Part shown: in pieces, positions 14,471-64,000 of the stretch
Position numbering within the stretch: position 1 is the stretch's first letter
Layout of the letters: each line of letters starts with the position of its first letter
Origin: Fidelibacterota bacterium
GTDB lineage: Bacteria > Fidelibacterota > UBA8477 > JABMPR01
Direction: 5' to 3'
Assembly (NCBI GenBank): GCA_018650795.1
Contig: JABIFG010000282.1
Span: 35,491 to 99,490, forward strand
Length of the DNA: 64,000 nucleotides
Made by a program: the position numbers and the translations under genes
The notes under the pieces: generated by a model
The model's database searches: none
Seen by the model: only the letters and a program-made list of their open reading frames with translations
Told to the model about the DNA's origin: nothing

Positions 14471-14766
14471 GCTATCCCCCTGAATGCATAGTCTGAAAAG
14501 GTGAGCAAAAACAAGGTTGCCAGGGTTACAAAAGCCAGGGCGACAAAGAGTTTAAATATCAGTGGTTCATGATTCAGGTGCATAAAGAAGTAAAGCACCA
14601 GTCCTGCTTTCACAGATGCAACTGACATGGCTATCAACAAAGCCCCGGTATTTCCAACATCAAGACCGGACAACAGCACGGTGGCAAGCGTCAGGACAAT
14701 GAGTGCAGAAAAAACAAGGACGGGACCGCGAGGACTAAAAGACTGCTCTTTTGTATTCATATTCAT
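14467..14766 (-). CDS. ctaF: Cytochrome c oxidase subunit IV, prokaryotic type
   Basis: 99 residues with three membrane helices (about 15-33, 40-61, 70-92) and the conserved KAGLVLYFFMHLNHEP segment around 53-68, typical of the small prokaryotic subunit IV. It overlaps the subunit II gene by four bases and lies five bases after subunit III, so it belongs to the same transcript. Confidence 0.88.
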   Translation of the reverse strand: MNMNTKEQSFSPRGPVLVFSALIVLTLATVLLSGLDVGNTGALLIAMSVASVKAGLVLYFFMHLNHEPLIFKLFVALAFVTLATLFLLTFSDYAFRGIA

Positions 14767-14771
14767 ACCCC

Positions 14772-15437
14772 CTATGCTACCAGGTAGTAAAGTGGAAAGA
14801 GGAAAATCCAGATCACATCAACCAAATGCCAATAAAGACCACAACGTTCGAGAACTCCAGCATTGTCCGGGTTAATGCTTCCTTTGGAGATCCAAAAGTA
14901 GACAATGCCCATCCATACAACACCAATGATGATATGCAATGCATGCGTGCCTGTCATAATGAAGTAAAGACCATAAAAGAGGACTTGTCCATCGGGCAAC
15001 ATATCAGGTCCAGGTGTTAAAAGTGGTGATCCCTTGCCCTCTGCAATTGCAGCGCTGGTCTGTAAAAATAGATGATGGGCAAATTTAGCATTCCACTCAA
15101 AGCCCTTGATAACTAAGAATGTCGTTCCTAGAGCCATGGTGAATAGAAGCATGGATTTGGCCAATTTGACCCGTCCAGCCTTCATGGCATTTAAAGACAA
15201 CACCATGGTAAGGCTACTGGCCAGAAGGATAATCGTATTTGTAGTACCAATACCCGTGTTCAAGCTTTCGGCTGCAATTTTAAAATCATTCAAGTGGGCC
15301 GTCCGGTACACACCATAAACGATGAAAAAGGCTCCAAAAAGAAGGAGCTCTGTAAAGAGAAATAACCAGAACCCTAAACGGGTCCCCTCTTCATCGTGAT
15401 GATGAAAAGCTTCTACCTTCACGGCTGGCTCACTCAT
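14772..15437 (-). CDS. ctaE: Cytochrome c oxidase subunit III
   Basis: 221 residues with five to six membrane segments. Family signatures include GFWLFLFTELLLFGAFFIVY near the N-terminus (about 22-41), an HALHIIIGV segment (about 160-168) and the terminal YWHLVDVIWIFLFPLYYL. The gene overlaps subunit I by eight bases, indicating translational coupling. Subunit III stabilises the proton uptake side of subunit I. Confidence 0.94.
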   Translation of the reverse strand: MSEPAVKVEAFHHHDEEGTRLGFWLFLFTELLLFGAFFIVYGVYRTAHLNDFKIAAESLNTGIGTTNTIILLASSLTMVLSLNAMKAGRVKLAKSMLLFTMALGTTFLVIKGFEWNAKFAHHLFLQTSAAIAEGKGSPLLTPGPDMLPDGQVLFYGLYFIMTGTHALHIIIGVVWMGIVYFWISKGSINPDNAGVLERCGLYWHLVDVIWIFLFPLYYLVA

Positions 15438-51838: not shown

Positions 51839-52108
51839 ATGGCAAGCAATCAGATCAACATGAAAGACCTATTCACCTTACTTGTGAATCAATTAAGTGC
51901 TGGGGCCTGGTCTCAACTGGGTAAAACCCCCAACCCAATCACGGGCAAACCGGAGATGAATCTGGAAGCGGCAGCTGTCAGTATTGGAATTTTGGAAGCC
52001 CTCCTTTTTAAGACAGCGGGTAACCTGACTCGCCAGGAAGACGCCCTACTTTCTGATAAGGTCCGCGAGTTGAAATTAAGCTTGCAGGAAGAATCAAATA
52101 AAAGATAG
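51839..52108 (+). CDS. DUF1844 domain protein
   Basis: 89 residues. MKDLFTLLVNQLSAGAWSQLGKTPNPITGKPE and a LEAAAVSIGILEALLFKT helix are typical of the small DUF1844 family found in planctomycetes and FCB bacteria; its role is unknown. It follows the GroES-like gene by 16 bases with an AAGGCGAG ribosome site. It is the last gene before the candidate end of the cassette array. Confidence 0.8.
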   Translation: MASNQINMKDLFTLLVNQLSAGAWSQLGKTPNPITGKPEMNLEAAAVSIGILEALLFKTAGNLTRQEDALLSDKVRELKLSLQEESNKR

Positions 52109-52179: not shown

Positions 52180-52219
52180 GGCTAACCCACCTGAGATTAA
52201 ACACAGCGCTTTGTTAGGT
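52180..52219 (-). repeat. Possible degenerate terminal attC
   Basis: On the minus strand ACCTAAC (52219-52213) could be an R'' box and GTTAGCC (52186-52180) an R' box, with only about 26 bases between. The reductase stop codon lies within the R''-like box, just as in true cassettes. The arms pair poorly, so this may be an eroded last attC or chance. Confidence 0.35.
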
Positions 52220-53224
52220 TTCTGATCCAACAGTAATAATCACATGGCCTTTTTTATGTCCCCGGTCAACGTATTTGTGAGCTTCCACAATTTGATCGAG
52301 AGAATAACGTTTATCTATAACTGCTTTAATTTCACGCTTCTCCATAAGCTCTTGCAGGAATATGAGCTCTTCAATATCCAGTTTCAAACTACCAGAAGAC
52401 TTGAGTACGTTCAGATACACACCTCCAGGCTTTAATATGTTTTTACATTGAGAAGGTGAAGCCTTGCCAACGGCATCAAAAACGACATCATACATCTCAG
52501 CATTTTTTGTGAAATCTTCTCGCGTATAATCAATAGCTTTGTTCGCACCCAGTGATCGAACCATATTCATGTTTCTCGTGCTGCATACGCCGACGACTTC
52601 TGCCCCCATATATTTGGCGAGCTGAACGGTAAAAGTTCCTACGCTACCTGAAGCACCATAAATAAGAATTTTTTGGTTCCTCTGAAGATTAGCTCTTCTT
52701 AGAAAACGTAACGCAGTGATGCCCCCATTGGGAACAGGTGCAGCCTCTGCATAGGACATATTGGCGGGTATTTTTGCTAACACACCATTTTCTGGCAAGC
52801 ACTTATACTCAGCATGGGCACCAAAACTCATTTCGGTGGCCGCAAACACCTTATCTCCTGGCTTGAAAAGGGTAACATCTCCACCGATTGCTTCGATTTC
52901 TCCAGCGAGCTCCATCCCCAATATCTTTTTACGTGGTCCCCTGAAACCAATCATAAATCGCATGATCGGTTTGAACAAAACATCCTGAACCTTGCCTAAT
53001 CCGGGTTTAAAGCCTCGAATTTTAGTATCCCCAATATGCACAGTGGTTGCACGAATTTTTATCAACACCTCATCGTCTTTAGGTGTCGGTTTTTCAATGT
53101 CTCGGACCTCAAGTACCTCAGGAGGTCCATATTTTGTACAGATGACTGCTTTCATTTTTAAAAAGTCTGAGTACGTTTCCAAATGTTCCCTTTTTGTTGT
53201 TCCGTGCCATATTCTAGCAATCAT
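52214..53224 (-). CDS. Zinc-less MDR-family NAD(P)-dependent oxidoreductase
   Basis: Medium-chain reductase, quinone-oxidoreductase type. The catalytic protein starts at MKAVICTKYGPPEVLEV (ATG 53155, 313 residues). The Rossmann glycine motif is YGASGSVGTFTVQLAKYMGA (about 148-167). The longer frame from 53224 adds MIARIWHGTTKREHLETY, which resembles the start of antibiotic-biosynthesis monooxygenases, not of reductases. This hints at a fused or remodelled cassette. The stop overlaps an R''-like box. It is probably the last or next-to-last cassette. Confidence 0.85.
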   Translation of the reverse strand: MIARIWHGTTKREHLETYSDFLKMKAVICTKYGPPEVLEVRDIEKPTPKDDEVLIKIRATTVHIGDTKIRGFKPGLGKVQDVLFKPIMRFMIGFRGPRKKILGMELAGEIEAIGGDVTLFKPGDKVFAATEMSFGAHAEYKCLPENGVLAKIPANMSYAEAAPVPNGGITALRFLRRANLQRNQKILIYGASGSVGTFTVQLAKYMGAEVVGVCSTRNMNMVRSLGANKAIDYTREDFTKNAEMYDVVFDAVGKASPSQCKNILKPGGVYLNVLKSSGSLKLDIEELIFLQELMEKREIKAVIDKRYSLDQIVEAHKYVDRGHKKGHVIITVGSET

Positions 53225-53252: not shown

Positions 53253-53376
53253 GTATAACGTCCTGAGTTTGAGCTGCTTCTGTATGAGGTGTGACTTTGT
53301 ATAATCGGTGCATCCTGAGACAATATTTCAGTAAAGCATTCCATTTTAGTTAGTCCGCCTTAAGCCTTTCTTAGGC
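53253..53376 (-). repeat. attC 1 (after the GNAT cassette), subfamily B
   Basis: R' GTTATAC (53259-53253) is intact; R'' GCCTAAG has lost the final C and overlaps the GNAT stop codon. Inner arms are TTTGAGCTGC and CCGCCTTAAGCC. The central part differs from the main attC type and matches attC 10. Confidence 0.8.
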
Positions 53377-53844
53377 AATAGGTTTTGCTAAGATTCGTGA
53401 CTGAATGTCATAGCCATCAGATTTATAAAATGCCTGTGCAGATGTGTTGAATTCCATTACCTCAAGACGTATTTCCTTAGCGCCTGACTTCTTTGCCCAT
53501 AATTCAACTTTATCCATTAGCGACCTGCCAATACCTTTTGAGCGGTGTTCCTTTGACACTACAATTGTTCCCACTCTACAAATTTTATCCTTTGAGAGAA
53601 AAACCACCTTCAAATTCTGTGTGATTCTTGCTGTAATAAATCCTTGGATCTTATCTTCATGTCTAGCTACGAAAAAAATGCTATTTTCAGAATCTATTAG
53701 AGCTCGCCAAAAGTCTTTGTCGCTCCCCATTGTTGCCGGTGAATTAAATACTGTGGGTACATTATTATGGTGATCCCAGTTGATTTGATTAGAAAGAACA
53801 CATATCGCGTCTAAATCAGCACTCGAAGCTTCAGTAATATTCAT
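53371..53844 (-). CDS. GNAT N-acetyltransferase (integron cassette)
   Basis: 157 residues from ATG 53844 with AGGA four bases upstream. A longer open frame to 53943 must be rejected, because its extra 33 codons translate the neighbouring attC. Motif A is VSKEHRSKGIGRSLMDKVEL (R/QxxGxG/A, about 88-107), followed by RLEVMEFNTSAQAFYKSDGY. The stop codon lies in the R'' box of attC 1. Related enzymes acetylate amines or antibiotics; the substrate is unknown. Confidence 0.88.
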   Translation of the reverse strand: MNITEASSADLDAICVLSNQINWDHHNNVPTVFNSPATMGSDKDFWRALIDSENSIFFVARHEDKIQGFITARITQNLKVVFLSKDKICRVGTIVVSKEHRSKGIGRSLMDKVELWAKKSGAKEIRLEVMEFNTSAQAFYKSDGYDIQSRILAKPIA

Positions 53845-53856
53845 AATTTCCTGTTT

Positions 53857-53981
53857 GCCGAATGTCTTTGGTTTGAGCTGTTTCCCGAAATAGACTCGAC
53901 TTGTTCGATAATTGTATCCGTCCACATCATTTTCGTCTTGCACCCCTCTGCATTTGAGTCCGCTCGAAACCTTTGCTAGAG
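53857..53981 (-). repeat. attC 2 (after the permease cassette), both boxes eroded
   Basis: Main-type centre (AGACTCG ... ATTGTATCC ... CCACATCATT) is conserved, but R' reads ATTCGGC and R'' reads CTCTAGC. Both conserved AAC/GTT cores are lost, so the site is probably inactive. Confidence 0.75.
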
Positions 53982-54000
53982 GGCTGGCTTTTACACCTAT

Positions 54001-54525
54001 TTATAATTTGGTGCTAGAAAAAAAGTAATTCGCAATTAGTCCGGCAACGGGCGGAAATATTAAAGTTGACGCAAGCCTGATGAGCGTAAATTTCCAACCA
54101 AGTATACCCACTTCCATCGGTATGCGTCCAACAGCCCAAAGCGACCATCCAGTTAAAAATGCCACCATTGTCCCTATATTTGCACCAGAATTTAAAAGGC
54201 CTGCAACTATTGGAAGACTTACATAGGGACCGCCTGGGGCTAAGCCTCCGGCAATGGATCCAACTAATATTCCACGAAACCCAGATTCAGCACCAATCCA
54301 TTTTGAAAGCATTTCTTTTGGTAATAGTATTGGAACCATACCTGCAATCACGAAGGCAAAAAGTAATAGGGGTAAGATTTGAACAAACATTGTAAAGGCG
54401 GATCGTAAACCTATCAGATGCTCACCTTCACCACGATTATACCCAATAAGCAGAAACACTATAGCAAGCATGCCCATGATAAGAGTTGGGATTAACATTT
54501 TATTAATATTCCTTTTCGCTGTCAA
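54001..54525 (-). CDS. Permease, ArsP/DUF318-like, short (integron cassette)
   Basis: 174 residues with four to five membrane helices. SIAGGLAPGGPYVSLPIVAG (about 90-110) resembles the core of DUF318/ArsP permeases, which are about twice as long, so this is a half-size member. Either TTG 54525 (AGGA five bases upstream) or ATG 54498 may be the start. The cassette carries attC 2 and begins 38 bases after the R' box of attC 3. Confidence 0.7.
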   Translation of the reverse strand: MTAKRNINKMLIPTLIMGMLAIVFLLIGYNRGEGEHLIGLRSAFTMFVQILPLLLFAFVIAGMVPILLPKEMLSKWIGAESGFRGILVGSIAGGLAPGGPYVSLPIVAGLLNSGANIGTMVAFLTGWSLWAVGRIPMEVGILGWKFTLIRLASTLIFPPVAGLIANYFFSSTKL

Positions 54526-54562
54526 ATTGGTCCTTTTGGCCGATTGTTGATAGATGACCCCC

Positions 54563-54686
54563 CCCTAACGCTTTAGGCTTGAGCTGCCCGTATCTAAGCA
54601 GTCGATTAGTATGATATTCTGTATATTCATCTTCATAATCGTTTTGCGATCCTCTCAAGAAGGTCAGAATGAAGCCTTTGTTAGGT
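54563..54686 (-). repeat. attC 3 (after the CPBP cassette)
   Basis: R' GTTAGGG (54569-54563) and R'' ACCTAAC (54686-54680) are 124 bases apart. Inner arms GCTTTAGGCTTGAGCTGC and TGAAGCC are conserved; the centre is divergent. Confidence 0.87.
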
Positions 54687-54716
54687 GTTTGGATTCCCAA
54701 CTAAAAATTTCAGACT

Positions 54717-55436
54717 TTAGAGAACTCTATCAATCATGGACATACTATTAAGTGCAGCGTGAGCAATAATTAATGGCCATAAATTTCGTCCAAAAGCCAC
54801 ATATGCTATTCCCATGACCAAACCAATTATGCCAACAGTTATTGATCTTTCTGAAAGATTATGTGAGTGTCTAAATCCAAAAATTGCTGCTTGTAATAGC
54901 ACTGCAAGTATTGTGGCGAACGAGGTCTTTGAAAACAATTTTTCTAACCAGTTCAATAAGAATCCTCTATCCAATAATTCTTCCAAAAAAGATTCGATTA
55001 AAACCATTGAAATTATTGAAAAGAAAAGCGGCCAGCTTCCTTTAAGATCGCCAAATTTTGTATCCGCACTCTCTGGGGTTGCATCAGGTGTTGTCAGAAA
55101 GGGCAGTTGATCTTTAAACAGATTAAAAACCAATATGAATGTTATCGCTGAAACTAGAATCAAGCCCGAGAGCAGTAGCGTTTTCTTAAAGTTATCAGGC
55201 TTGTGTAAACCTAACTCTTTCCACGTCACGCCTCTTGCCCTCATTCTCCAAGTAGCTACAACGAGAGTAGAAAATGACCAGAAAAGACCGTTTGCAAGGA
55301 AGCCTAAACTGGGGAAATATATTTCTCTGACCAAAAACATTGTAAAGAGATAAATCACCAAGTCAAAGAAAATCCCTTTATAGTCAGCTGGTTTCATGAT
55401 TTTTGCTTCAGTATTAATATTATTCACCATGTTCAT
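54717..55436 (-). CDS. CPBP family intramembrane glutamic protease (integron cassette)
   Basis: 239 residues with seven to eight membrane helices. The three CPBP motifs are visible: EELLDRGFL (EExxxR, about 168-176), FGFRHSH (FxxxH, about 190-196) and HAALNS (HxxxN, about 226-231). Bacterial members process CAAX-like or bacteriocin-related substrates and confer self-immunity. Which applies here is unknown. The cassette ends with attC 3. Confidence 0.88.
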   Translation of the reverse strand: MNMVNNINTEAKIMKPADYKGIFFDLVIYLFTMFLVREIYFPSLGFLANGLFWSFSTLVVATWRMRARGVTWKELGLHKPDNFKKTLLLSGLILVSAITFILVFNLFKDQLPFLTTPDATPESADTKFGDLKGSWPLFFSIISMVLIESFLEELLDRGFLLNWLEKLFSKTSFATILAVLLQAAIFGFRHSHNLSERSITVGIIGLVMGIAYVAFGRNLWPLIIAHAALNSMSMIDRVL

Positions 55437-55495
55437 GCTTGTTTGAATTCCTTTTTTTCAGCCGCTTCCAGTGCACAGTAACTCTATTGTAAATA

Positions 55496-55726
55496 CACCC
55501 AACGCTTTAGGCTTGCGCTGCTTCCCAAAGCAGACTCGCTTAGTTCGATAATTGTATCCATCCACATCATTTCGGACTTCCTCTCGTCACTCTGTGTGTC
55601 GAAGACCCCGCCGGAGGGGAACGCGAAGTGTCGGGGTTAGTCAGCTCTAAGCCTTGGGTCGTGGCAAAGGACATCGATTTCAATTGCAGCGCGACCCGCG
55701 ACTCCGTGAGCAGGGGTTTGTTATAC
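55496..55726 (-). repeat. attC 4, extended and chimeric (after the YdeI-like cassette)
   Basis: About 231 bases. The low-coordinate arm (ACGCTTTAGGCTTGCGCTGC, R' eroded to GTTGGGT) and the centre are of the main type. A main-type 3' arm, CAGCTCTAAGCC, ends at 55653 without a GTTAG. A second, GC-rich arm then follows to the R'' box GTATAAC (55726-55720), which overlaps the YdeI stop. It looks like two attC ends fused. Confidence 0.7.
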
Positions 55727-56323
55727 CTTTTTAGTCTTGTCAGAGCCAAAGCCCGGCTTTTCTTCGCGGACAAGCATATCCATGAATTTTGCAAATCGCC
55801 TCTGTCTGGTTTCTGGTTTCTTCGCACTTGTCAATCCGTACGCGATGACGTAACGGCTCGATTTATTGAGCGTTTCAAAGAATTGGTTCGCCTTCGGCTT
55901 GCTTTGCAGTGCTGCCAAGAAATCCGCAGGCACTTCCAGCTCACTTGCCGTATTGGCGTTCTCCCAGCGGCCGTCCGCTTTGGCTGCACGAATATGCACG
56001 AGGCCTGACTCCGTCATTCGACCCTCGCTTATCAAACGCTCCGCATGCTCTCTGTTCCTTTTTGACCAGTTGCTTCGCGTCGTTCTTGGAGTGACGCGTT
56101 GGAGATAGGCTTGGTCATCGATTGACTTCTTGACACCGTCGATCCAGCCCCAGCACAGCGTCTCAATCACGACATCGTCCCAAGTCACGCTCAGAATGCC
56201 AGTCTTTTTCTTGAATATCTTCACCCAGAGCTCACTTTCGGTGGCATGATTCACCATGAGCCACTGGCCGAGATATTTCGGCTTTGCAAATGTCATAATT
56301 CTATCTGGATCGGGTTCAGGCAT
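55721..56323 (-). CDS. YdeI/OmpD-associated family protein (integron cassette)
   Basis: 200 residues. Landmarks of the family: ESELWVKIFKKKTGILSVTW, ETLCWGWIDGVKKSIDD (about 55-71), FTPRTTRSNWSKRN-like VTPRTTRSNWSKRN and a C-terminal SSRYVIAYGLTSAKKPETRQ. Function is unknown. Base composition is clearly more GC-rich than neighbouring cassettes, pointing to a different source. Its attC is the chimeric site 4. Confidence 0.87.
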   Translation of the reverse strand: MPEPDPDRIMTFAKPKYLGQWLMVNHATESELWVKIFKKKTGILSVTWDDVVIETLCWGWIDGVKKSIDDQAYLQRVTPRTTRSNWSKRNREHAERLISEGRMTESGLVHIRAAKADGRWENANTASELEVPADFLAALQSKPKANQFFETLNKSSRYVIAYGLTSAKKPETRQRRFAKFMDMLVREEKPGFGSDKTKKV

Positions 56324-56341
56324 GAAACTAGATTCTCCTCG

Positions 56342-56368
56342 GTATAACGCTCTACGCTTTTGTTATGC
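56342..56368 (-). repeat. attC 5, collapsed to 27 bp (after methyltransferase 1)
   Basis: R'' GCATAAC (56368-56362) and R' GTTATAC (56348-56342) remain, but only 13 bases separate them (AAAAGCGTAGAGC). The L arms and centre are deleted. It cannot fold into a normal attC, so this junction is probably frozen. Confidence 0.7.
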
Positions 56369-56378
56369 GCATCACTGT

Positions 56379-57017
56379 TTAGTGCCTTCTCGCTACAATA
56401 AAGCTGATAGTTATGCCATGAAATATTTTTTCAGCTTTTAGCAGACTAAAATTCTGGCTGGTGACTAGTTTCTCTACATCAGAAGTTGTAAATAGATTTA
56501 AATGTAAAGGAAATATCCCAAGTTTCTTAATTACAGAATACGCGGAAAACTCTATTCTGTTTTTGAAAGCCATTTTATCTCCCAGGCAAGCTGTTGTGGA
56601 AATAAACAAACCGTCTGGTTTCAGCAATTCATGAATTCTTCGAATTACTTTTTCACTATCATCCAATAAATGAATTACTCCATACGAAACAATTTTGTCG
56701 AATGAAGCTTCCTCTAGATCACTATTGAAAATATTCCCTTGTGAGAAGGAAACCTTCTTAGCCTCTTTTTCGCTTATCTTTTTTATTGCTTCGTTAATCA
56801 TCTCAATCGAGATGTCAAGTCCATGAATGTGATGAACCCCATCAACAAGTTCTAATGTTTTAGTACCTGTTGCACATCCGAAGTCTAGAACATTATCATT
56901 TGTATTGAGGTATTCCTTTGTTTTAGTAATTACCTCCTTAAAGACAGCTTCGAATTGTCTTTCACTATAGTCATATTTTTTTGCCTGTTTATCCCAAAAT
57001 TTTTGTGTTTTATTCAT
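56379..57017 (-). CDS. Class I SAM methyltransferase (integron cassette)
   Basis: 212 residues. SAM motif I is VLDFGCATGTKTLELV (about 43-58), followed by an acidic residue in LDISIEMINEA and motif post-II around IVSYGVIHLLDDSEKVI. Target unknown; small-molecule or quinone-type methylation is possible. A low-GC gene, compared with the YdeI cassette beside it. Followed by the collapsed attC 5. Confidence 0.86.
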   Translation of the reverse strand: MNKTQKFWDKQAKKYDYSERQFEAVFKEVITKTKEYLNTNDNVLDFGCATGTKTLELVDGVHHIHGLDISIEMINEAIKKISEKEAKKVSFSQGNIFNSDLEEASFDKIVSYGVIHLLDDSEKVIRRIHELLKPDGLFISTTACLGDKMAFKNRIEFSAYSVIKKLGIFPLHLNLFTTSDVEKLVTSQNFSLLKAEKIFHGITISFIVARRH

Positions 57018-57079
57018 TAGAATACCTGTATCTCAGTATTTTGAACCCTGTATGTAGAATTCCACATTTCTTCGTATGC

Positions 57080-57204
57080 GTATGGCGTCCCACGCTTAAG
57101 CTGCCTCGCAGAGAAGCATCGCTTTGTATAACTTGTGTATCCGTAGACATCATCATCGTTGAGCACTCCCTTTGTGTGGGTCAGCTTGAAGCAGCATGTT
57201 AGAC
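57080..57204 (-). repeat. attC 6 (after methyltransferase 2)
   Basis: R'' GTCTAAC (57204-57198) is canonical; R' reads GCCATAC (eroded). 125 bases. Inner arm sequence GTCCCACGCTTAAGCTGCC is intermediate between the two attC subfamilies. Confidence 0.8.
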
Positions 57205-57225
57205 ACTAAATTTGGTGATTGGCAT

Positions 57226-57987
57226 CTATTGATCTTTCACGGCCGTAGATATTAGTCTATTGCTTGTCTGTTTATCATAAGCTGAAAAATCATAGTCTCC
57301 ATAAAATCGAATATCTTTAAACCCACTAGCTCCGAGCAAATTCTTATGATCATCCTGAAGAAATACTTTCTTGTAAGTAATGCTCCATGACTGCAGTGAA
57401 TTCTGTCCCTTTGGATGGTGAAGATCTAACATGTTATAGGTGGCACCTTCGCCATCGTAATCAATGACAAAAACTCTTGAAGCATTATCATGACTTGGTC
57501 CTAATATGAACCGTGGTTTCTCATTCCACTGCTTATCTGTTGTGCCTTGCGTTAATATTAACAAACCACCCTTGTTAAGTATCTTTTTCATGCTGTGTAA
57601 AGCACTTAGAAATTCAGCATCATTGGGCATATGGAGTATTGAACTTGTTAGACATACTAACGCATCAAATTTTCTATTAAAGTGTTCGGAAAGATTGCGG
57701 TAATCAGCCTCAATTACTTCAATTTTAGAACCAAATCTGTTAAGGTTAACTCGGGCTTGATTGAGCATCCCAGGCGAAATATCGGACCCAATCACTTCGC
57801 AGTCTAATGATTGAAAAAGTGGTAAATATTGACCAGTCCCACAAGCACAATCAAGGACACTTGTGATATTATGATTTTGAAACATCCTTTTATAGAATTC
57901 ATATGTTTGTGAATCATATTTTCCAAATTCACCATGAAAGTGATCATATCGGTATGCGATTTCACTATAGGGGTCTTGTTTAGTCAT
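57226..57987 (-). CDS. Class I SAM methyltransferase (integron cassette)
   Basis: 253 residues. Motif I VLDCACGTGQYLPLFQS (about 40-56), then VIGSDISPGMLNQARVNL and a DALVCLTSSILHMPNDAEFL motif. The C-terminal half is variable beta-strand sequence. Target unknown. ATG 57987 has GGGAAT just upstream and follows the R' box of attC 7 by about 20 bases. Confidence 0.86.
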   Translation of the reverse strand: MTKQDPYSEIAYRYDHFHGEFGKYDSQTYEFYKRMFQNHNITSVLDCACGTGQYLPLFQSLDCEVIGSDISPGMLNQARVNLNRFGSKIEVIEADYRNLSEHFNRKFDALVCLTSSILHMPNDAEFLSALHSMKKILNKGGLLILTQGTTDKQWNEKPRFILGPSHDNASRVFVIDYDGEGATYNMLDLHHPKGQNSLQSWSITYKKVFLQDDHKNLLGASGFKDIRFYGDYDFSAYDKQTSNRLISTAVKDQ

Positions 57988-58006
57988 AGCATTCCCGTTT
58001 TTATGT

Positions 58007-58131
58007 GCCTAGCGCTTTAGGCTTTACCTGCTTCTCAAGGAAGCATCGCTATGTAAGTTCACTGTATCCATCCACATCAGTTTAGCACTCCAGACCACTG
58101 CGTGTGAGTCAGCTTGAAGCCTTTGTTAGCC
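58007..58131 (-). repeat. attC 7 (cassette with inverted toxin-antitoxin pair)
   Basis: R' GCTAGGC (58013-58007, GTT core eroded) and R'' GGCTAAC (58131-58125), 125 bases. Arms GCTTTAGGCTTTACCTGC and CAGCTTGAAGCC; centre ACTGTATCC-ATCCACATCA of the main type. Confidence 0.85.
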
Positions 58132-58140
58132 TGGCATTAT

Positions 58141-58169
58141 TTGTTTGCCATATGTCATATCTGACATAT
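58141..58169 (+). promoter_or_regulatory. Promoter/operator of the plus-strand toxin-antitoxin module
   Basis: A perfect inverted repeat ATATGTCA-TATC-TGACATAT (58150-58169) lies 10 bases before the first start codon. A TTGTTT (58141-58146) 17 bases ahead of ACATAT (58164-58169) may be its promoter. Antitoxins of this class typically repress such sites. Confidence 0.6.
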
Positions 58170-58179
58170 CTTAGTCCCG

Positions 58180-58512
58180 ATGAACATGAATGACAAACCT
58201 CTCGTCTGGTTACATGGTGAAGTCAAAACACCACCTTTCTCTTCTGAAGCTAGAATTGAAGCTGGTTACCTTTTGAGATCGCTCCAGATGGGTGAGAATT
58301 TGAGTATGCCTCAATCTCGACCAATGCCAAGTATTGAATCCAGGTGTCACGAATTGAGAATAAACGATGAGGCTGCAACTTGGAGACTGATTTATCGGAT
58401 TGATGATGATGCCATCGTCATTCTTGAGGTTTTTAGCAAAAAGACTCAACAAACTTCCAAAAAAGTGATAGATGTCTGTAAGAAAAGAATAAAGGAATAT
58501 GACAATGCGTAA
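58180..58512 (+). CDS. HigB/RelE-type toxin (Gp49-like), inverted in its cassette
   Basis: 110 residues. The RelE-fold segment RCHELRINDEAATWRLIYRI (about 54-73) and EVFSKKTQQTSKKVIDVCKK (about 84-103) match phage Gp49-like HigB toxins, ribosome-dependent mRNA endonucleases. It overlaps the antitoxin gene by 14 bases, in toxin-first order. The operon is on the plus strand, opposite to most other cassettes, and has its own palindromic operator. Confidence 0.82.
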   Translation: MNMNDKPLVWLHGEVKTPPFSSEARIEAGYLLRSLQMGENLSMPQSRPMPSIESRCHELRINDEAATWRLIYRIDDDAIVILEVFSKKTQQTSKKVIDVCKKRIKEYDNA

Positions 58513-58816
58513 AGAGAAAGCTAAAAGATTAGAAAACAAGGGCTGGAAGATTGGCTCAGCAGAAGATTTTCTCGGTCTCTCTCCTGAGGAATCAGCATAC
58601 ATAGACCTGAAACTCAACTTAAGTGCAAAGCTCCGTAAATTGAGGGCAGAGCAAAATCTCACACAGACTGAACTTGCCAAACTGATCCATTCTAGCCAAT
58701 CAAGAGTAGCTAAGATTGAAACTGGTGATCCTACTGTCTCAATTGATCTCATCATTAAATCTCTTCTCGCTCTCGGTGCCTCCAAGAAGCAACTCGCTCG
58801 GGCAATTTCATCCTGA
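58499..58816 (+). CDS. XRE-type antitoxin (HigA-like) of the inverted module
   Basis: 105 residues. The C-terminal half is an HTH (about 45-95): LRAEQNLTQTELAKLIHSSQSRVAKIETGD. The N-terminal helix may contact the toxin. It neutralises the preceding HigB/RelE-like protein and probably represses the palindrome at 58150. The gene ends 13 bases before the R' box of attC 8. Confidence 0.84.
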   Translation: MTMRKEKAKRLENKGWKIGSAEDFLGLSPEESAYIDLKLNLSAKLRKLRAEQNLTQTELAKLIHSSQSRVAKIETGDPTVSIDLIIKSLLALGASKKQLARAISS

Positions 58817-58828
58817 TTACCTAGCTCA

Positions 58829-58955
58829 GGCTAACGCCTTAGGCTTGAGCTGCTTCATGGGAACCACTTAAAACAATTCGGTAATCTTGTGTACGTGATT
58901 TCAATCTTAATTTCCCCCAAGATGAGTGTGAGTCGGCTTTAAGCCTTTGTTATAC
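58829..58955 (-). repeat. attC 8 (after the higBA cassette)
   Basis: R' GTTAGCC (58835-58829) and R'' GTATAAC (58955-58949) are both good; 127 bases. The R'' box contains the higA stop codon. Confidence 0.88.
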
Positions 58956-59243
58956 TGCTGCGAACTCCAGTTTTTCCACACCTGTTAAGTCAACTTTTTG
59001 TCTAGCTACCCATAGCGAATAGCTATCCTGCATCGCAAGCCAACTCTCAGGACTGCGACCCAGAACTTGAGACAAGCGTAATGCCATCTCAGGTGAAACA
59101 TTGCTTTCACCCTTTAAAAGACGAATGAATGTCGAAGGAGCAACATCAAGATTCTTTGCAACCTTTCTTGAGCTAATACCAAAAGGCTCTATGTATATCT
59201 CACGGATGAATTCACCAGGATGGGGCGGATTGTGCATACTCAT
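58950..59243 (-). CDS. higA: HigA-type antitoxin (integron cassette)
   Basis: 97 residues. HPGEFIREIYIEPFGISSRK is the classical HigA N-terminus; the HTH (about 23-75) contains RKVAKNLDVAPSTFIRLLKG. It overlaps the toxin gene by one base, in the toxin-first order of higBA. The stop codon is in the R'' box of attC 8. It likely binds the palindrome inside the promoter at 59527-59555. Confidence 0.92.
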   Translation of the reverse strand: MSMHNPPHPGEFIREIYIEPFGISSRKVAKNLDVAPSTFIRLLKGESNVSPEMALRLSQVLGRSPESWLAMQDSYSLWVARQKVDLTGVEKLEFAAV

Positions 59244-59521
59244 TAGCGATAATCCTCATAATTTACAATTTGCGCATTGCCTTCCTCAAACTTGAAGGTT
59301 ACCCGCCAATTGCCACTTATGGATATTGACCAGATTCCACTTCTTTCCCCCTTCAGGGGGTGAAGACTAAATCCTGGCAAATCCATGTCATCAATAATTC
59401 GAGCTGAATCCAAAGCTGCTAACATGAGTCTAAGCTTCTTGGCATGCTTTGCTTGAATACCAGCCGTTGATCCCATCTCATAATATTTCTTAAGTCCTTT
59501 ATGCTTAAATGACAGAATCAT
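59243..59521 (-). CDS. higB: HigB-type toxin, RelE superfamily (integron cassette)
   Basis: 92 residues. MILSFKHKGLKKYYEMGSTA at the start, RLMLAALDSARIIDDMDLPG in the centre and NWRVTFKFEEGNAQIVNYED at the end are HigB hallmarks. This ribosome-dependent mRNA interferase is held in check by HigA encoded downstream. Its own promoter with an operator lies directly upstream. Confidence 0.92.
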   Translation of the reverse strand: MILSFKHKGLKKYYEMGSTAGIQAKHAKKLRLMLAALDSARIIDDMDLPGFSLHPLKGERSGIWSISISGNWRVTFKFEEGNAQIVNYEDYR

Positions 59522-59526
59522 GGCTT

Positions 59527-59555
59527 AATATAGCGTATTGCGCATCACGCAACAA
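59527..59555 (-). promoter_or_regulatory. higBA promoter with palindromic operator
   Basis: On the minus strand TTGTTG (59555-59550) and TATATT (59532-59527) are 17 bases apart. The palindrome TTGCG-TGATG-CGCAA (59552-59538) spans most of the spacer and overlaps the -35, a good place for HigA to block polymerase. Confidence 0.7.
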
Positions 59556-59572
59556 CCCTTTTTACAGTCAAT

Positions 59573-59675
59573 GTATAACGCCTTAGGCTTGAGCTGCTTC
59601 CCAAGAAAGCATCGATTTGTAAGTTCCGTATATCCGACCACATCATTTTTGTATTCCATCTCCCCTGCATAACTA
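59573..59675 (-). repeat. attC 9, truncated (after the propeller lipoprotein cassette)
   Basis: The R' end is intact: GTTATAC (59579-59573) with arm CGCCTTAGGCTTGAGCTGC and main-type centre to CCACATCATT. The whole R''/L'' arm is missing; the sequence runs straight into the lipoprotein stop at 59673. This half-site cannot form the folded hairpin. Confidence 0.75.
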
Positions 59676-60992
59676 TTCTATCCCTAACACATACTTGTCA
59701 GAGCTTGAATTGGCATATGCGTAAATAAAATGATTATTGTACCCGATTGCACCACCCGCCCAGCCACCTGATGGCAATTCAATGTTCCACAAAGCAGTAC
59801 CTGTAGAAGACTCTATTGCTTGAAATTCACGTCCAGGAATATATAAAACGCCTGCACCATCCATTGCAATCACGGAATATTGATAAGTTAGAAGTGAACT
59901 TCGATATATTTCTACCCCATCATAGCCCAGCGCTAACAATTCATCGCCGGCACAAATGTAAAGATGCCCATTAGGCCCAAGACTGTATTTATCTGAACCA
60001 GTGTCGACGTTATATCTCCACCTGAGAGATCCATCGGGATTAAGCGCATGTAATCCATTGGCTTCTGAGGCGACACCATCCACCCAACCACCTACGGCAA
60101 CATAGATATTACTTTGATTATCGACCATTGGCTGTCCCATGGTATGTTCGTCTCCACCGAGATTGAATTCCCAGAGGACTTGTCCATTCAAGTCTAATGC
60201 GTAAAGCTCGGCATAATTTTTCGCACCTGGAACATAAAGAGTATTACCATCAGGTGCGATTGCAAGGGTCCAGTGTTCATTGGCCCTGAAACTCTGATTA
60301 CTTTCTTTTATCCAAGAAAGATTGCCATCTTCTTGTAGCGCCACAAGGTTTCCTGATGAGTCGATAAAATAAATGGTCCCATCCATACCGATATTAAGAT
60401 TATCAGGGATCCAGTTGCCACCACTGTGAGTGTATTTCCAACTAAGGACACCGTCGGAATCCAAAGCGTATATATTCGCGTAAAGGCTACTTTTTCCGAA
60501 AAACACTATCTCGTTATTAGCTGTTATTATAGGACCACCCGATGCAATGTCATGAGGGTGGTTATTGTCTGAGAACACCCATTTCTGTTCACCATTTGGA
60601 TGTAAAGCATACAGAACCCATCTATGCTGACCGCTCCCCACGAGTGTATCGTTATTTGAGATGAAATAGATAGATGAATCGGCCCCAATAGCTATTGAAG
60701 AGTTCCCATAATTGTCACCCACACCACCAAGCTCTGTGCGCCAACTAACGGTACCAGCTACAGGTCCTTCATAGGTAGTTCTTCTGGTGCCTTGAGGATC
60801 GTGGGAATACATGGGCCATGGACTATCAGCGAGACTTGGCCACGGAACATGCTCCTGAGTCATTGTCGCAGGAATTGTGTCTTGGACGATAGGAACGTCG
60901 TCTTGTTTGGTTGGAGAATCCTCTGTACAACCCATCAGAAATAGTACTATACTCGCCAGTACTAATGTGATGTTGGTTGTTCGCTTTTTCAT
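59673..60992 (-). CDS. PQQ-type beta-propeller lipoprotein (integron cassette)
   Basis: 439 residues from ATG 60992 (GGGTGGGAATT upstream; a GTG at 61001 is also in frame). Signal peptide with lipobox LFLMGC, so lipid-anchored in the envelope. The rest is a repeated propeller of the PQQ_2 type, with blades marked by ALHPNGEQKWVFSDN, ALDSDGVLSWKYTHSG, ALDLNGQVLWEFNLGG and ALNPDGSLRWRYN. Probably a scaffold or binding protein, not an enzyme. It is the longest cassette gene in the window. Confidence 0.82.
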   Translation of the reverse strand: MKKRTTNITLVLASIVLFLMGCTEDSPTKQDDVPIVQDTIPATMTQEHVPWPSLADSPWPMYSHDPQGTRRTTYEGPVAGTVSWRTELGGVGDNYGNSSIAIGADSSIYFISNNDTLVGSGQHRWVLYALHPNGEQKWVFSDNNHPHDIASGGPIITANNEIVFFGKSSLYANIYALDSDGVLSWKYTHSGGNWIPDNLNIGMDGTIYFIDSSGNLVALQEDGNLSWIKESNQSFRANEHWTLAIAPDGNTLYVPGAKNYAELYALDLNGQVLWEFNLGGDEHTMGQPMVDNQSNIYVAVGGWVDGVASEANGLHALNPDGSLRWRYNVDTGSDKYSLGPNGHLYICAGDELLALGYDGVEIYRSSLLTYQYSVIAMDGAGVLYIPGREFQAIESSTGTALWNIELPSGGWAGGAIGYNNHFIYAYANSSSDKYVLGIE

Positions 60993-61018
60993 AATTCCCA
61001 CCCCCTATAACATATTCC

Positions 61019-61145
61019 CTCTAACGTCCCGCGCTTGAGCGGCTCCCGTATGATTTATCCTTTTGCAAAAAAAAACTGTATCCTGAGACATGATTTTGGT
61101 TAACCAATCCATTTTGGTGAGTCCGCTCGAAGCAGCAAGTTATGT
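61019..61145 (-). repeat. attC 10 (after the NmrA cassette), subfamily B
   Basis: R' GTTAGAG (61025-61019) and R'' ACATAAC (61145-61139), 127 bases. Arms GCGCTTGAGCGGCTCC and GTCCGCTCGAAGC and a TGTATCCTGAGACA centre are shared with attC 1 and distinct from the main type. Confidence 0.85.
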
Positions 61146-61157
61146 GTTTCAACAGAC

Positions 61158-62084
61158 TCAAAGAAGTCCATTATTGACTCTTTTGGTAGTCTCCATTTCT
61201 AAAGTGACAGGTTTATAAATAAATAAGTCGCGCAATATTTTGTGATCATTTGGAACATTGTCAGCTAAATCAGAAGGGAAATTATTTAGCATTTTTAGGC
61301 TTTTATACAAAAACCTTACAAATGGGGCAAAGGGTAAGAGGCAAAATGAAACTATATTGATGACTAATAATGGTATTGCCATATGATTGATAGTTTTTCC
61401 ACTGATAGATGCAATTCTTTCTGCCGCTTTCGGGAAGGTAAATGCTTCAGGTCCAGTCAGTTTTAATCGTTGCCCATTTAAATCATCCCGCAAAGCTGCT
61501 TGTGCTGTAATTTCTCCAACATCATCAGCAGAAATACATGGAATAGCATTCAGCCCTCCACCTGGCACAGCCATTTTACCGTTCCGGATAAATGCAAAGA
61601 ATATTTCAAATGCTGGAGCATCACCCAGTATTGTCCAATTAAAGTCTGATTCGGATATTTGCTTTTCAATCTTGATTTTGATTTCACCAAATTCAGGTAT
61701 TTTTAAGTCGTTTAGTAGCTGTTCTCTCATTTCATACCCAGACATGTAGATTAATCTTGAGATATTTAATCTTTTTGCCTCGGCCATGATTGTGATTACC
61801 GCATCATGTTCAATCTGTTCCATCTTTCGGATTAGTTTGTTACTCATCGCCGAGAGACAAATGATAACAGTGCTGACATTTTGTAAAGATTTTACTATGG
61901 TTTGATGATTGGTAACATCACCCTGAAATATATCGACATTTTCTCCCAGAATTTCTACCGCGTTTTCTCGGTTTCGACTTACAACTCTGACAGCTTCACC
62001 TTTTTGAGTGAGCCTTTGGACTACCTTTCGCCCATAATATCCTGTGCCCCCGTATACTATGATGATGTTACTTTTAGTACTCAC
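61158..62084 (-). CDS. NmrA/atypical SDR NAD(P)-binding protein (integron cassette)
   Basis: 308 residues, GTG start with GGAGTG upstream. Rossmann motif IIVYGGTGYYGRKVVQRL (GGTGxxG, about 8-25) and a DVTNHQTIVKSLQNVSTVI segment. There is no SDR catalytic YxxxK at the usual place (RLIYMSGYEM instead), as in NmrA-like sensors and some complex-I assembly-type SDRs. A C-terminal hydrophobic stretch (about 240-262) could be a membrane anchor. Ends with attC 10. Confidence 0.85.
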   Translation of the reverse strand: MSTKSNIIIVYGGTGYYGRKVVQRLTQKGEAVRVVSRNRENAVEILGENVDIFQGDVTNHQTIVKSLQNVSTVIICLSAMSNKLIRKMEQIEHDAVITIMAEAKRLNISRLIYMSGYEMREQLLNDLKIPEFGEIKIKIEKQISESDFNWTILGDAPAFEIFFAFIRNGKMAVPGGGLNAIPCISADDVGEITAQAALRDDLNGQRLKLTGPEAFTFPKAAERIASISGKTINHMAIPLLVINIVSFCLLPFAPFVRFLYKSLKMLNNFPSDLADNVPNDHKILRDLFIYKPVTLEMETTKRVNNGLL

Positions 62085-62108
62085 AATAGCACTCCCAACT
62101 TCTATTCA

Positions 62109-62233
62109 CTCTAACGTTTTAAGCTTAAGCTGCTTCCCAAAACAGACTCGCTTTGTTTGATAACTGTATCCATCCAGGTCATTATTGTCATGCACATCCT
62201 TGCGTGTGAGTCAGCTTGAAGCTTTTGTTAGGG
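62109..62233 (-). repeat. attC 11 (after the zinc-ribbon cassette)
   Basis: R' GTTAGAG (62115-62109) and R'' CCCTAAC (62233-62227), 125 bases. Main-type arms and centre, including AACTGTATCCATCCAGGTCA. Confidence 0.88.
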
Positions 62234-62251
62234 CACTTTTCAGAGTAAGAA

Positions 62252-62917
62252 TTATCTAGATTTTAGTTCCTGAATTTTTAGCTCTAGCTCTTTTATCTCA
62301 GCCCCTTGTTCGGCATCATCAACATCATCTGTTTTCAGAACATATAAAGCTTCATAGTATTGATCTAGTGCTTTGCTATACTGTTCTTTGAATTCAAATT
62401 TTTTAGCTTTTTCAATAAAATACGAATACAGGATTTTATTTGATTGACTATTCAGCTTATCAATTGCCTTGAAAACTGAATCTTCATCGCCAACAATTTC
62501 AGATAGATTTTCTAGTTTTGTGATACCCTTATTTATTGCTGCTGTGGTGGAACTATCTGTTTTAGCTAATTTTGCCTTTGAAATAGAATCCTTCAATATC
62601 AATTCGATTTGTTCAGCGAGAATTTCTTCTTTTACTTCCTCAAGATTAGCAATAACAGTCGATGGAGAAGGATCACTTACAGAAATATCCATTTGTTCAT
62701 ATCTTTGAAGTTGGCGTGCATGATCTAGAACTAATTCGCAACGCTCCCATCTAGTTTTAAAAACTTTGCCATCATTGACAATCTTTAAGGAAGACTCAAT
62801 TACTCTAGCCCTCTGCTGTAATTCAAACGATACTTTTGGAGCACAGGATTTGCAAAGCCCTCTGTAATCGACTTTTACAAACATCCCACTATTTTTGCAC
62901 CATTTGCATGAAGCCAT
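62252..62917 (-). CDS. Zinc-ribbon protein with helical repeat domain, unknown function
   Basis: 221 residues. The N-terminus has two CxxC pairs, CKWCKNSG (4-7) and CKSC (22-25), which form a small zinc ribbon. The rest is helical and charged, ending in a TPR-like helix (KFEFKEQYSKALDQYYEALY) and a coiled coil. A strong GGGGGAA ribosome site precedes ATG 62917. I do not recognise the family. A role in protein or nucleic acid binding is only a guess. Confidence 0.7.
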   Translation of the reverse strand: MASCKWCKNSGMFVKVDYRGLCKSCAPKVSFELQQRARVIESSLKIVNDGKVFKTRWERCELVLDHARQLQRYEQMDISVSDPSPSTVIANLEEVKEEILAEQIELILKDSISKAKLAKTDSSTTAAINKGITKLENLSEIVGDEDSVFKAIDKLNSQSNKILYSYFIEKAKKFEFKEQYSKALDQYYEALYVLKTDDVDDAEQGAEIKELELKIQELKSR

Positions 62918-62941
62918 GCTATTCCCCCTTTCTTAAAGTTG

Positions 62942-63064
62942 CCCTAACGCTTTAGGCTTGAGCTGCTTTTCAATTCAGACTCGCTTGTAAATTCATTTTA
63001 TCCGCCCACTTCATTTCTGTCATCCACTTCTTTCATTTGAGTCAGCTCTAAGCCTTTGTTAGTT
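62942..63064 (-). repeat. attC 12
   Basis: R' GTTAGGG (62948-62942) and R'' AACTAAC (63064-63058), 123 bases. Main-type arms GCTTTAGGCTTGAGCTGC and CAGCTCTAAGCC. Confidence 0.88.
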
Positions 63065-63092
63065 GGCTGATATTTTTTTGTGAATCATTAAT

Positions 63093-63848
63093 TTAATCCA
63101 ACGTCTGATACATTACTTCGTATCCATGTTTAGCAGGGTCGTATTGGAATTCAGGTCTAGTCGATTCCAAATACTCGTTCTTCAGATCAAGAAACTGTTT
63201 TAGAAGAATTTCTTCTCTGGTACCTGGGTTCTCTGGGTAACTTCCTCTATACCAACGTAATTTCATCCTGCGAACTTCATGTCGGAAAGTTAGAGTGTCG
63301 AGATCATCCGTAGATAAGCAGTCTTTAAGAGCCAGCATGTCAGCTATATGATCCTCTAATTCAATCACTCTTTTAGAAGGCGTTCCAACTACTGAAAGAA
63401 AATAGGAACTACCTGAGCTTCCTTTCGGAGTCTGTGCAACGGCGGCCACCTTAAAAGGGCGTTTTTTATGAGCAATTACATCACCCTGGATTGAAATTAG
63501 CGTATTTGCGGGGAGGTCTCCTGTGAATGTCTTATTCTCTCCTCTGATCTCAGCGTAATCTGTATGCGAATAGTAAACTACTAGCATGAGCTCTAAATCA
63601 GGGACGGCTTTCGAGGAAATAAAGTCTGCACGAGCCGAAACACTTCCCCCACTATCAACTTCCAAAGCTGAAAACATAAGTGTAGGAATTGCGCCTAACC
63701 CATGACTAGACCTATTTAACTCTCCCCATATTAAATAAGGGTAATCGGGATCGATAGGATCGCCAAAGTCGCCTTGTACATAAAAGTGCCCGTCCGCTAG
63801 GCAAAGATTGACAATAACGAATAGATTAATGATTATCTTCAATAACAC
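63093..63848 (-). CDS. Secreted protein of unknown function (integron cassette)
   Basis: 251 residues (GTG 63848; TTG 63842 with GGAG upstream is also possible). It starts with a signal peptide (KIIINLFVIVNLCLADG) followed by a mature region rich in beta strands (to about 160) and a charged helical C-terminus (RHEVRRMKLRWYRGSYP). No known domain is evident. The cassette ends with attC 12 and starts just after attC 13. Confidence 0.7.
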   Translation of the reverse strand: MLLKIIINLFVIVNLCLADGHFYVQGDFGDPIDPDYPYLIWGELNRSSHGLGAIPTLMFSALEVDSGGSVSARADFISSKAVPDLELMLVVYYSHTDYAEIRGENKTFTGDLPANTLISIQGDVIAHKKRPFKVAAVAQTPKGSSGSSYFLSVVGTPSKRVIELEDHIADMLALKDCLSTDDLDTLTFRHEVRRMKLRWYRGSYPENPGTREEILLKQFLDLKNEYLESTRPEFQYDPAKHGYEVMYQTLD

Positions 63849-63856
63849 TCCAGACC

Positions 63857-63981
63857 AACTAACGCTTTAGGCTTGAGCTGCTTCCTGAAACAGACTCGCT
63901 TTGTTCGATAATTGTATCCATCCACATCATTTTCGTTTGGTAATCCCCCTCGTGTGAGTCCGCTCTAAGCCTTTGTTAGAC
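63857..63981 (-). repeat. attC 13 (belongs to the next cassette to the right)
   Basis: R' GTTAGTT (63863-63857) and R'' GTCTAAC (63981-63975), 125 bases. The best main-type example: arms GCTTTAGGCTTGAGCTGC and CCGCTCTAAGCC, centre TCGATAATTGTATCC. Its cassette gene lies beyond base 64000, proving the array continues. Confidence 0.9.
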
Positions 63982-64000
63982 AACGAATTAAATCACCCCA

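Follow-up and report, generated by a model that had tools for sequence, protein, structure and literature searches.

Dispersed attI Modules in a Fidelibacterota Genome and the Possible Service of Several Cassette Arrays by One Integron Integrase

Introduction

The stretch of 64,000 nucleotides considered here (the window) comprises positions 35491-99490 of contig C40 in the genome G000 of a Fidelibacterota bacterium, and its right edge is the end of that contig. Toward this edge, a run of short genes is separated by attC-like sites, as in the cassette array of an integron. In the standard view, an integron is one platform, consisting of an integrase gene (intI), one adjacent attI and one array. 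The locus raises the question of where the integrase of this array is encoded and whether it serves this array only. Based on sequence comparisons, it is likely that the single intI of the genome serves three attI-headed arrays, inserting and removing cassettes, and acts in trans at two of them. A broader proposition is that of a distributed integron, in which attI in this genus would be a chromosomal fixture whose inheritance and spread are independent of intI, and several attI would be loaded and unloaded by a single integrase wherever its gene lies. The chances for and against this wider form appear about equal.

In the proposed mechanism, the module that separates intI from the first cassette would be attI. 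IntI would recognise every copy of attI and, like other integrases, would take attC as a folded bottom strand. New cassettes would enter next to each attI, and at an attI without a neighbouring intI the integrase would act in trans. If this is true, arrays without intI may still be active, and knowledge of the local attI allows the attI that heads such an array to be recognised. One cassette could come to stand at many chromosomal positions, each with its own neighbours and expression, and many arrays without intI in other organisms may conceal an unread attI.

The host belongs to the phylum Neomarinimicrobiota/Fidelibacterota, which NCBI places in the Fibrobacterota-Chlorobiota-Bacteroidota (FCB) group. 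This agrees with an initial annotation, made from the sequence of the window, which had proposed an FCB-type host outside the gammaproteobacteria. G000 is a fragmented bin of 355 contigs, 91.5% complete, and all genomes compared with it are likewise metagenome bins. The genus sample comprises 19 genomes, G000 included.

The Array and Its Platform

The integron is genuine. A covariance model, R1, was built from a plus-strand alignment of ten sites in the window and has an outer stem of 5 pairs and an inner stem of 14 pairs. In the region 53255-63979, R1 matches 12 sites (E 8.9e-12 to 1.6e-31), all 12 in one orientation. Ten of these are the training sites and match by construction, while the two non-training sites, s4 (55499-55661) and s9 (59575-59716), score 85.2 and 54.3 bits, respectively. 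Of the 13 attC-like sites listed in the initial annotation, 12 are recovered by R1 at the places given there and the thirteenth is a 27-bp remnant.

The integrase is encoded on contig C73. The final 141 bases of C40 and those of C73 are exact reverse complements of each other, the only such overlap among the 12 contig ends compared (the genome has 355 contigs). SpoIID, encoded on C73, adjoins the DUF1844-groES genes of C40 in G009, G010 and G018, where the aligned gene ends are 33 bp apart, and also in G011. Because these genes are neighbours in four relatives that lack the integron at this place, the join of C40 and C73 is confirmed. In G000, about 13.8 kb separate SpoIID from DUF1844. The order on C73, in one direction, is SpoIID, intI (L010:13182-14201), the putative attI, a gene for a 132-amino-acid protein (14374-14772) and the attC site s13. 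The overlap and the synteny thereby bear out the earlier expectation that the window holds the distal end of the array and that intI and attI lie to its right; beyond position 64000, where a tyrosine recombinase and an attI were to be looked for, C73 carries an integron integrase and a putative attI.

The intI gene (C73:33212-34156) is full length and free of stops. Its product scores 457 bits against TIGR02249, for which the cut-off is 265, and is the one match above this cut-off in the whole genome, 15 weaker matches falling below it. The protein aligns to the solved IntI4 over residues 14-323 (E 7.5e-82), and the alignment covers what we take to be the IntI-specific stretch. The best IntI1 matches are 50.8% identical to it. 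Given this identity and the placement of the protein among already named reverse-type integrases, the new integrase family suggested in the initial annotation is too strong a claim. Terminator and promoter scans of the platform found nothing above chance; specifically, L010:13000-14450 contains two promoter-like matches compared with 3.1 expected by chance.

Dispersed Copies of the Putative attI

When the sequences behind intI at nine loci of the genus were aligned, seven proved to be alike just before a GTTA core and divergent beyond it, and two (L145 and L153) had another version. The palindrome TTATACGAGACCGTATAA (TTATAC-N6-GTATAA) has exactly three copies in G000, one on C73 beside intI and two on C231. 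With three mismatches allowed, seven other places match, compared with 32 for a reversed control pattern, so only the exact copies of the palindrome count. In a blastn search with the attI module of about 150 bp, C73 is 100% identical and the C231 copies are 89 and 80% identical. The sequence flanking the copies on both sides appears unrelated. At the sequence level, dispersed attI copies are demonstrably present in this genome.

The two copies on C231 each head an array. The first, C231a, is followed by a gene for a 280-amino-acid protein and one attC at the contig start. The second, C231b, is followed by a YoeB/YefM-type pair, an attC, a gene for a 494-amino-acid protein and a second attC. 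The attC after both copies are on the right strand, and no intI match was found in the fetched stretches of C231. With two attC and no intI nearby, C231b reaches the count of a cluster of attC sites lacking integrases (CALIN), while C231a, with one attC before the contig end, remains below it. Both arrays carry an attI module and are not free of attI, a property that the usual CALIN definition does not demand. The main-array sites closest to the outlying attC are s10 for C231a (79%), s8 for C231b (82%), s6 for C38 (82%) and s11 for C108 (88%). Solitary attC lie off the arrays at C108:786-906, at C38:3005-3125, beside cytochrome-like genes, and at C121:6985-7108. Additionally, about 70 bp of the attI module, lacking the core, recur at C241:3818-3883 with 87% identity.

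Similar modules occur across the genus. A motif of 27 bases, allowing up to two mismatches, was written after the intI-linked attI and the two C231 copies had been seen. It has 25 matches in 11 of the 19 genomes, compared with eight for the reversed pattern. Seven matches stand beside an intact intI (in G000, G001, G002, G003, G012, G013 and G018) and 18 stand away from one. An R1 attC is present within 2 kb downstream of ten of these 18, in all ten cases on the right strand, and the chance expectation is about 0.5% per site. Four of these ten sites are in G013, two in G000 and one each in G001, G002, G005 and G007. The search for intI in the flanks covered 16 of the 18 sites (G010:C258 and G017:C30 were left out), and at 14 of the 16 no trace of intI was found in the fetched flanks. 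The module may have dispersed through loss of intI from complete integrons, since two sites keep intI fragments, or through movement of attI itself.

Cassette Change at attI Sites without intI

Two comparisons of cassettes, one between G012 and G013 and one within G002, suggest that the integrase is used in trans. The first concerns a site directly behind SpoIID that is shared by three species, represented by G013 (C88), G012 (C7) and G007 (C29). The upstream flank of this site is 92% identical between G012 and G013 and 78-80% identical in the other pairs, and no intI was found in the flanks in any of the three genomes. Between G013 and G012, the sequence upstream of the core is 85% identical over 150 bp, and that downstream of the core is 54% identical, compared with 53% for shuffles. 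In G013, attI is followed by three cassettes. In G012, attI is joined straight to the third of these, with 91.7% identity over 411 bp, and the shared cassette starts at the first base past GTTA (junction GTTAG). Because the first cassette of G012 is the third of G013, two cassettes were apparently inserted or removed exactly at this attI. The sole intI matches at E 1e-60 in the two genomes lie elsewhere, on G013:C30 and G012:C19. Since the layout without intI is common to both, intI had probably already gone from the site when G012 and G013 parted, and recombination there probably continued after its departure.

In G002, the same first cassette is found at four of five attI (C31, C71, C112 and the intI-linked C47), identical over 98-132 bases from GTTA. 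Beyond the last 200 upstream bases, the flanks of these attI have no mutual match at E 1e-10. Mixed strains in the G002 bin could contribute to the repetition. At C71 this cassette (L211:1435-1054) is about 250-270 bp long and has an attC end and no evident gene; it may provide a promoter or encode a small RNA.

SpoIID itself was found in 13 of the 19 genus genomes. The place behind it is empty in G009, G010, G011 and G018, is occupied by attI and cassettes in G007, G012 and G013, and holds intI, attI and cassettes in G000. Neither attI nor DUF1844 follows SpoIID in G003, G005, G006 and G017, and in G015 the contig ends there. Because empty and occupied genomes are intermingled in the tree of the SpoIID gene, with G009 beside G012 and G013 (support 89/88), it seems that either the platform at this site was gained or lost more than once or the gene tree is misleading. 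With empty, attI-only and complete states present among relatives, gain and loss of the platform are directly testable at this site.

Alternative Explanations

Several observations weigh against the service of dispersed attI by a single integrase. Four of the matches without intI (G012:C7 and G002:C31, C111 and C112) are less than 550 bp from a contig end, and a second intI is possible on DNA missing from the fragmented bins. No attC is detectable in the 7 kb downstream of G005:C34, and G005 has two attI without intI and no intI match. Three two-mismatch matches without an R1 attC (G018:C16, G010:C258 and G017:C30) may be due to chance; the first of them has one weak attC match in the pattern scan. 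The motif also misses the intI-linked attI of G006, G007, G009 and G015. The SpoIID site resembles the module over only about 45 bp beside the core, and the minimal attI is unsure. In G007, the core at this site reads GTTT and the attI may be dead, and the intI of that genome adjoins a different-looking attI. Fragments of intI lie upstream of attI in G002:C111 (residues 224-339) and G013:C158 (residues 246-286), which fits mere loss of intI. The fragment in G013, 41 residues long, belongs to a site other than that behind SpoIID. Finally, activity at the attI copies is deduced from comparison. At the locus of G002:C111 (L212), there is also a weaker recombinase match farther away.

The alternative that fares best, though it is itself unlikely, is that the additional attI-headed arrays are relics. 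They would be the remains of complete integrons whose intI was lost and in which recombination ceased, that is, CALINs with a still readable attI. Both intI fragments agree with such an origin, as does the decay of seven of the 13 attC in the main array. However, the flanks of 14 of the 16 sites searched are free of any trace of intI. Moreover, G013 and G012 differ by two whole cassettes at an intI-less attI that they share, and one identical cassette recurs at four attI of G002.

It is very improbable that this is an ordinary sedentary integron with a single platform, in which the extra motifs are host operators or promoters and cassettes reached them by off-target insertion of the attG type. 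The motif is palindromic, like many operators, and insertion of cassettes at genomic sites other than attI is known from the accessible portions of PMC12444791 and PMC11023631; yet the likeness extends over the whole module rather than the palindrome, the cassette edge falls at the GTTA core, and all three exact copies head cassettes. An artefact of assembly or binning, with C231 or the contigs of relatives derived from other organisms with complete integrons, is just as hard to credit, for although every genome is a metagenome bin and contigs break at cassettes, SpoIID and DUF1844 flank the site or its empty place in seven genus members (on one contig in G007, G009, G010, G011, G013 and G018 and on two in G000), C231 is 133 kb long with attC that match particular main-array sites, and upstream flanks without intact intI are continuous over 3.4-6 kb.

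The attC Sites of the Window

The sites of the main array form attC-like hairpins whose ends are conserved and whose bottom strand has unpaired bases on its 3' arm. In the training alignment, 86.3% of the stem cells are paired. Sliding the partner by -3, -2 and -1 positions lowers this to 30.9, 23.3 and 37.0%, and sliding it by +1, +2 and +3 lowers it to 63.7, 32.9 and 28.9%. A weaker control by shuffling has a mean of 83.4%, and 6 of 500 shuffles reach the observed value. A pattern-and-stem scan of the whole window found six sites. All six fall within the array on the strand expected for it, and the opposite strand has no site. An Rfam scan of the window returned nothing at the gathering score. 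A generic stem scanner proved unspecific, with 17 and 22 matches on the two strands of the 52.5 kb that lie outside the array, and was dropped. A covariance model for attC in general was abandoned because its 3' arms were misaligned by MAFFT. The stricter scanners gave expected versus control counts of 71 vs 18, 42 vs 4 and 89 vs 4.

All sites are on the minus strand, and the scores below are those of R1. From the distal end, they are s1 (53255-53374, 96.7 bits), whose core has decayed to TAAG; s2 (53859-53979, 109.9 bits), with both cores decayed; s3 (54565-54684, 93.7 bits); and s4, which is enlarged and decayed. The remnant s5 (56342-56368) keeps both core ends and lacks the inner stem. One core is decayed in each of s6 (57082-57202, 103.1 bits) and s7 (58009-58129, 110.8 bits). 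These are followed by s8 (58831-58953, 81.4 bits) and by s9, one half of which is decayed. The remaining sites are s10 (61021-61143, 93.8 bits), s11 (62111-62231, 124.5 bits), s12 (62944-63062, 116.6 bits) and s13 (63859-63979, 127.2 bits), the last belonging to the first cassette, whose gene is on C73. A further attC remnant of 36 bp (52182-52217, minus strand), read directly with no stem test, overlaps the stop of a dehydrogenase gene and probably marks where the array ends distally.

TAAC, GTTA and the inner stem are all intact in six of the 13 sites, namely s3, s8 and s10-s13. That all four attI-proximal sites are intact (chance 0.02, one-sided, post hoc) fits older cassettes lying farther from attI.

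In other respects, the initial annotation requires correction. The full seven-base boxes that it described, RYYYAAC and GTTRRRY, pair in no site, and the sole pair found sits in a methyltransferase gene (57424-57580). The ten regular sites measure 119-123 bp and not 123-127 bp, with s4 at 163 and s9 at 142 bp. Folding and recombination are expected of the plus strand of the window, the complement of the cassette genes, rather than of the minus strand. Lastly, the array is modest in size and does not resemble the large superintegrons of Vibrio. A giant superintegron of that kind was considered and rejected for the genome as well, in which R1, once the window and the s13 copy on C73 are set aside, has eight matches at E 0.1 or below, including two weak ones.

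Cassette Genes and the Distal Flank

The initial annotation had counted twelve short genes, mostly on the same strand. Of the 14 genes that lie between sites, the minus strand carries 12. Beyond the array lies the distal chromosomal flank, with a DUF1844 gene (51839-52108, plus strand; PF08899, E 5.9e-19). Within the insertion between SpoIID and DUF1844 falls a gene for a zinc-binding dehydrogenase or quinone oxidoreductase-like protein (52214-53224, minus strand; Pfam ADH_zinc_N and ADH_N). Because it begins 30 bp past s1 and ends in a stop that overlaps the 36-bp attC remnant, this gene, which the initial annotation had not included, is probably one more, terminal cassette.

The cassettes that follow are on the minus strand unless stated otherwise. 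They encode a GNAT acetyltransferase (53371-53943; PF00583, E 1.6e-19), a half-length ArsP_1 permease (54001-54525; PF03773, E 3.2e-15, profile positions 12-138 of 294), a CAAX (Rce1-like) protease (54717-55436; PF02517, E 1.6e-16) and a YdeI/OmdA-like protein (55721-56323; PF13376, E 1.5e-21). Two methyltransferases are next (56379-57017; PF13847, E 1.9e-24; and 57226-57987; PF13649, E 2.1e-17). The only plus-strand cassette carries a toxin-antitoxin-like pair, Gp49-like and helix-turn-helix (58180-58816; PF05973 and PF01381), and is followed by a HigB/HigA-type toxin-antitoxin pair (58950-59521; PF05015, E 1.4e-21, and PF01381). Nearer to attI are genes for a beta-propeller protein-like product of 442 amino acids (59673-61001; weak beta-propeller matches) and an NmrA/NAD(P)-binding protein (61158-62084; PF13460, E 3.6e-19). 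The proteins of 221 (62252-62917) and 251 amino acids (63093-63848) have no match in Pfam or NCBIfam at E 1e-3.

Orientation of the Integrase and Occurrence in the Phylum

The integron is of the reverse type and belongs to the known inverted-integrase group. On C73, intI, attI, the first cassette gene and attC are all co-directed, and intI runs with the cassettes. The same arrangement is found without joining of contigs in L145 of the same genus, where a single contig carries intI and then six attC on its 3' side. A strand-controlled scan of 121 integrase loci (two plasmid genes excluded and one record doubled, L022 being L152) found 89 attC-like sites oriented away from intI and 4 in the opposite orientation. 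The 89 are divided between the 5' side (51) and the 3' side (38). Automatic labelling of these loci gave 26 canonical, 20 reverse, 3 both and 72 without a label.

The two orientations were compared with the phylogeny of the integrases. In a quick tree with automatic labels (45 labelled rows), there are 6 changes, compared with a shuffled mean of 15.0, and none of 500 shuffles is as low. A curated tree of 62 integrases, 46 of them labelled (20 reverse and 26 canonical), has 2 changes compared with 15.3 in shuffles; this value is flattered, since the candidate sites of 27 loci were read and labels changed after the quick tree had been seen, and the uncurated figure is 6. In this curation, L079 and L165 passed from reverse to canonical and L089 from both to canonical, while L146, L026, L031 and L017 became reverse. 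L032, L072, L134, L137 and L169 were unlabelled as ambiguous, and L087, a short integrase piece, was omitted. The tree takes in no Treponema and no archaeal integrases, and in the quick tree the branches of a two-Xer outgroup are too long for rooting.

The integrase of G000 is placed among the reverse-type integrases of the curated tree. The reverse loci on the tree come from Neomarinimicrobiota, Thermodesulfobacteriota, Planctomycetota, Nitrospirota, Actinomycetota (Coriobacteriia and one Actinomycetes bin) and bins named Deltaproteobacteria. The canonical loci come from Chloroflexota, Cyanobacteriota, Gammaproteobacteria and one 'Gracilibacteria' bin, together with 11 loci from Neomarinimicrobiota. 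Both types are present in G015, which has three integrases, the reverse L153 and L155 and the canonical L154, the latter with six attC on the 5' side in the strict scan. In L032, from an Acidobacteria bin, a strong attC about 163 bp 5' of intI points to intI and another attC lies 3'.

Within the phylum, an integron-integrase match at E 1e-60 is present in at least 43 of 245 genomes and 25 of 84 genera, scoring being restricted to the best candidates of each genome, and 42 exceed the TIGR02249 cut-off. In the genus, 10 of the 18 other genomes have an intI match at E up to 1e-60. Six integron-integrase matches, on separate contigs and two of them partial, are found in G111, also from Neomarinimicrobiota. 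Database proteins of this type are already titled 'integron integrase [Candidatus Marinimicrobia bacterium]'. A literature search on integrons in Marinimicrobia or Neomarinimicrobiota, which did not extend to the name Fidelibacterota, gave none on this subject among the matches listed, and the phylum list in the accessible part of PMC8618304 does not include Neomarinimicrobiota. The present results add Neomarinimicrobiota to the known integron hosts.

Comparison with Known Systems

Among the literature matches listed, drawn mostly from outside subscription journals and available in part, no description was found of several attI-headed arrays with one integrase. The system nevertheless shares features with several that are known. 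As in the sedentary chromosomal integrons of Vibrio (TIGR02249), a chromosomal intI and a putative attI accompany a series of similar attC, and the cassettes carry mostly unknown genes along with toxin-antitoxin pairs. In contrast to the Vibrio type, intI is co-directed with the cassettes, there are three attI copies rather than one, and the arrays are short.

Reverse integrons and an 'inverted integrase group' are already recognised in the accessible text of PMC3607928, on Treponema, and of PMC7691350, PMC4909258 and PMC10500605. The integrase described here falls among the reverse-type integrases, and the result extends an already known group. In those portions of the sources, Neomarinimicrobiota is not among the named hosts and dispersed attI are not mentioned. 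The archaeal integrons of PMC9668308, as far as its available text describes them, likewise have attI immediately downstream of intI and differ in their hosts.

The closest parallels to the arrays without intI are CALINs, attG sites and delta-attI cassettes. The available part of PMC12444791 describes CALINs as arrays of attC without intI at conserved chromosomal places and says that they are movable in trans. In that portion, the account of Xanthomonas describes no local attI module, whereas here each such array is headed by one. The attG sites of PMC11023631 and PMC12444791 resemble the present case in holding cassettes off the main attI; in the passages available, however, attG is neither attC nor attI, while the site here is an attI copy. 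The delta-attI cassettes of PMC12901181 similarly provide attI usable by an integrase besides that of the platform itself. According to the accessible portion of that source, they are pieces of attI inside the cassettes of mobile integrons, whereas the copies described here head separate chromosomal arrays.

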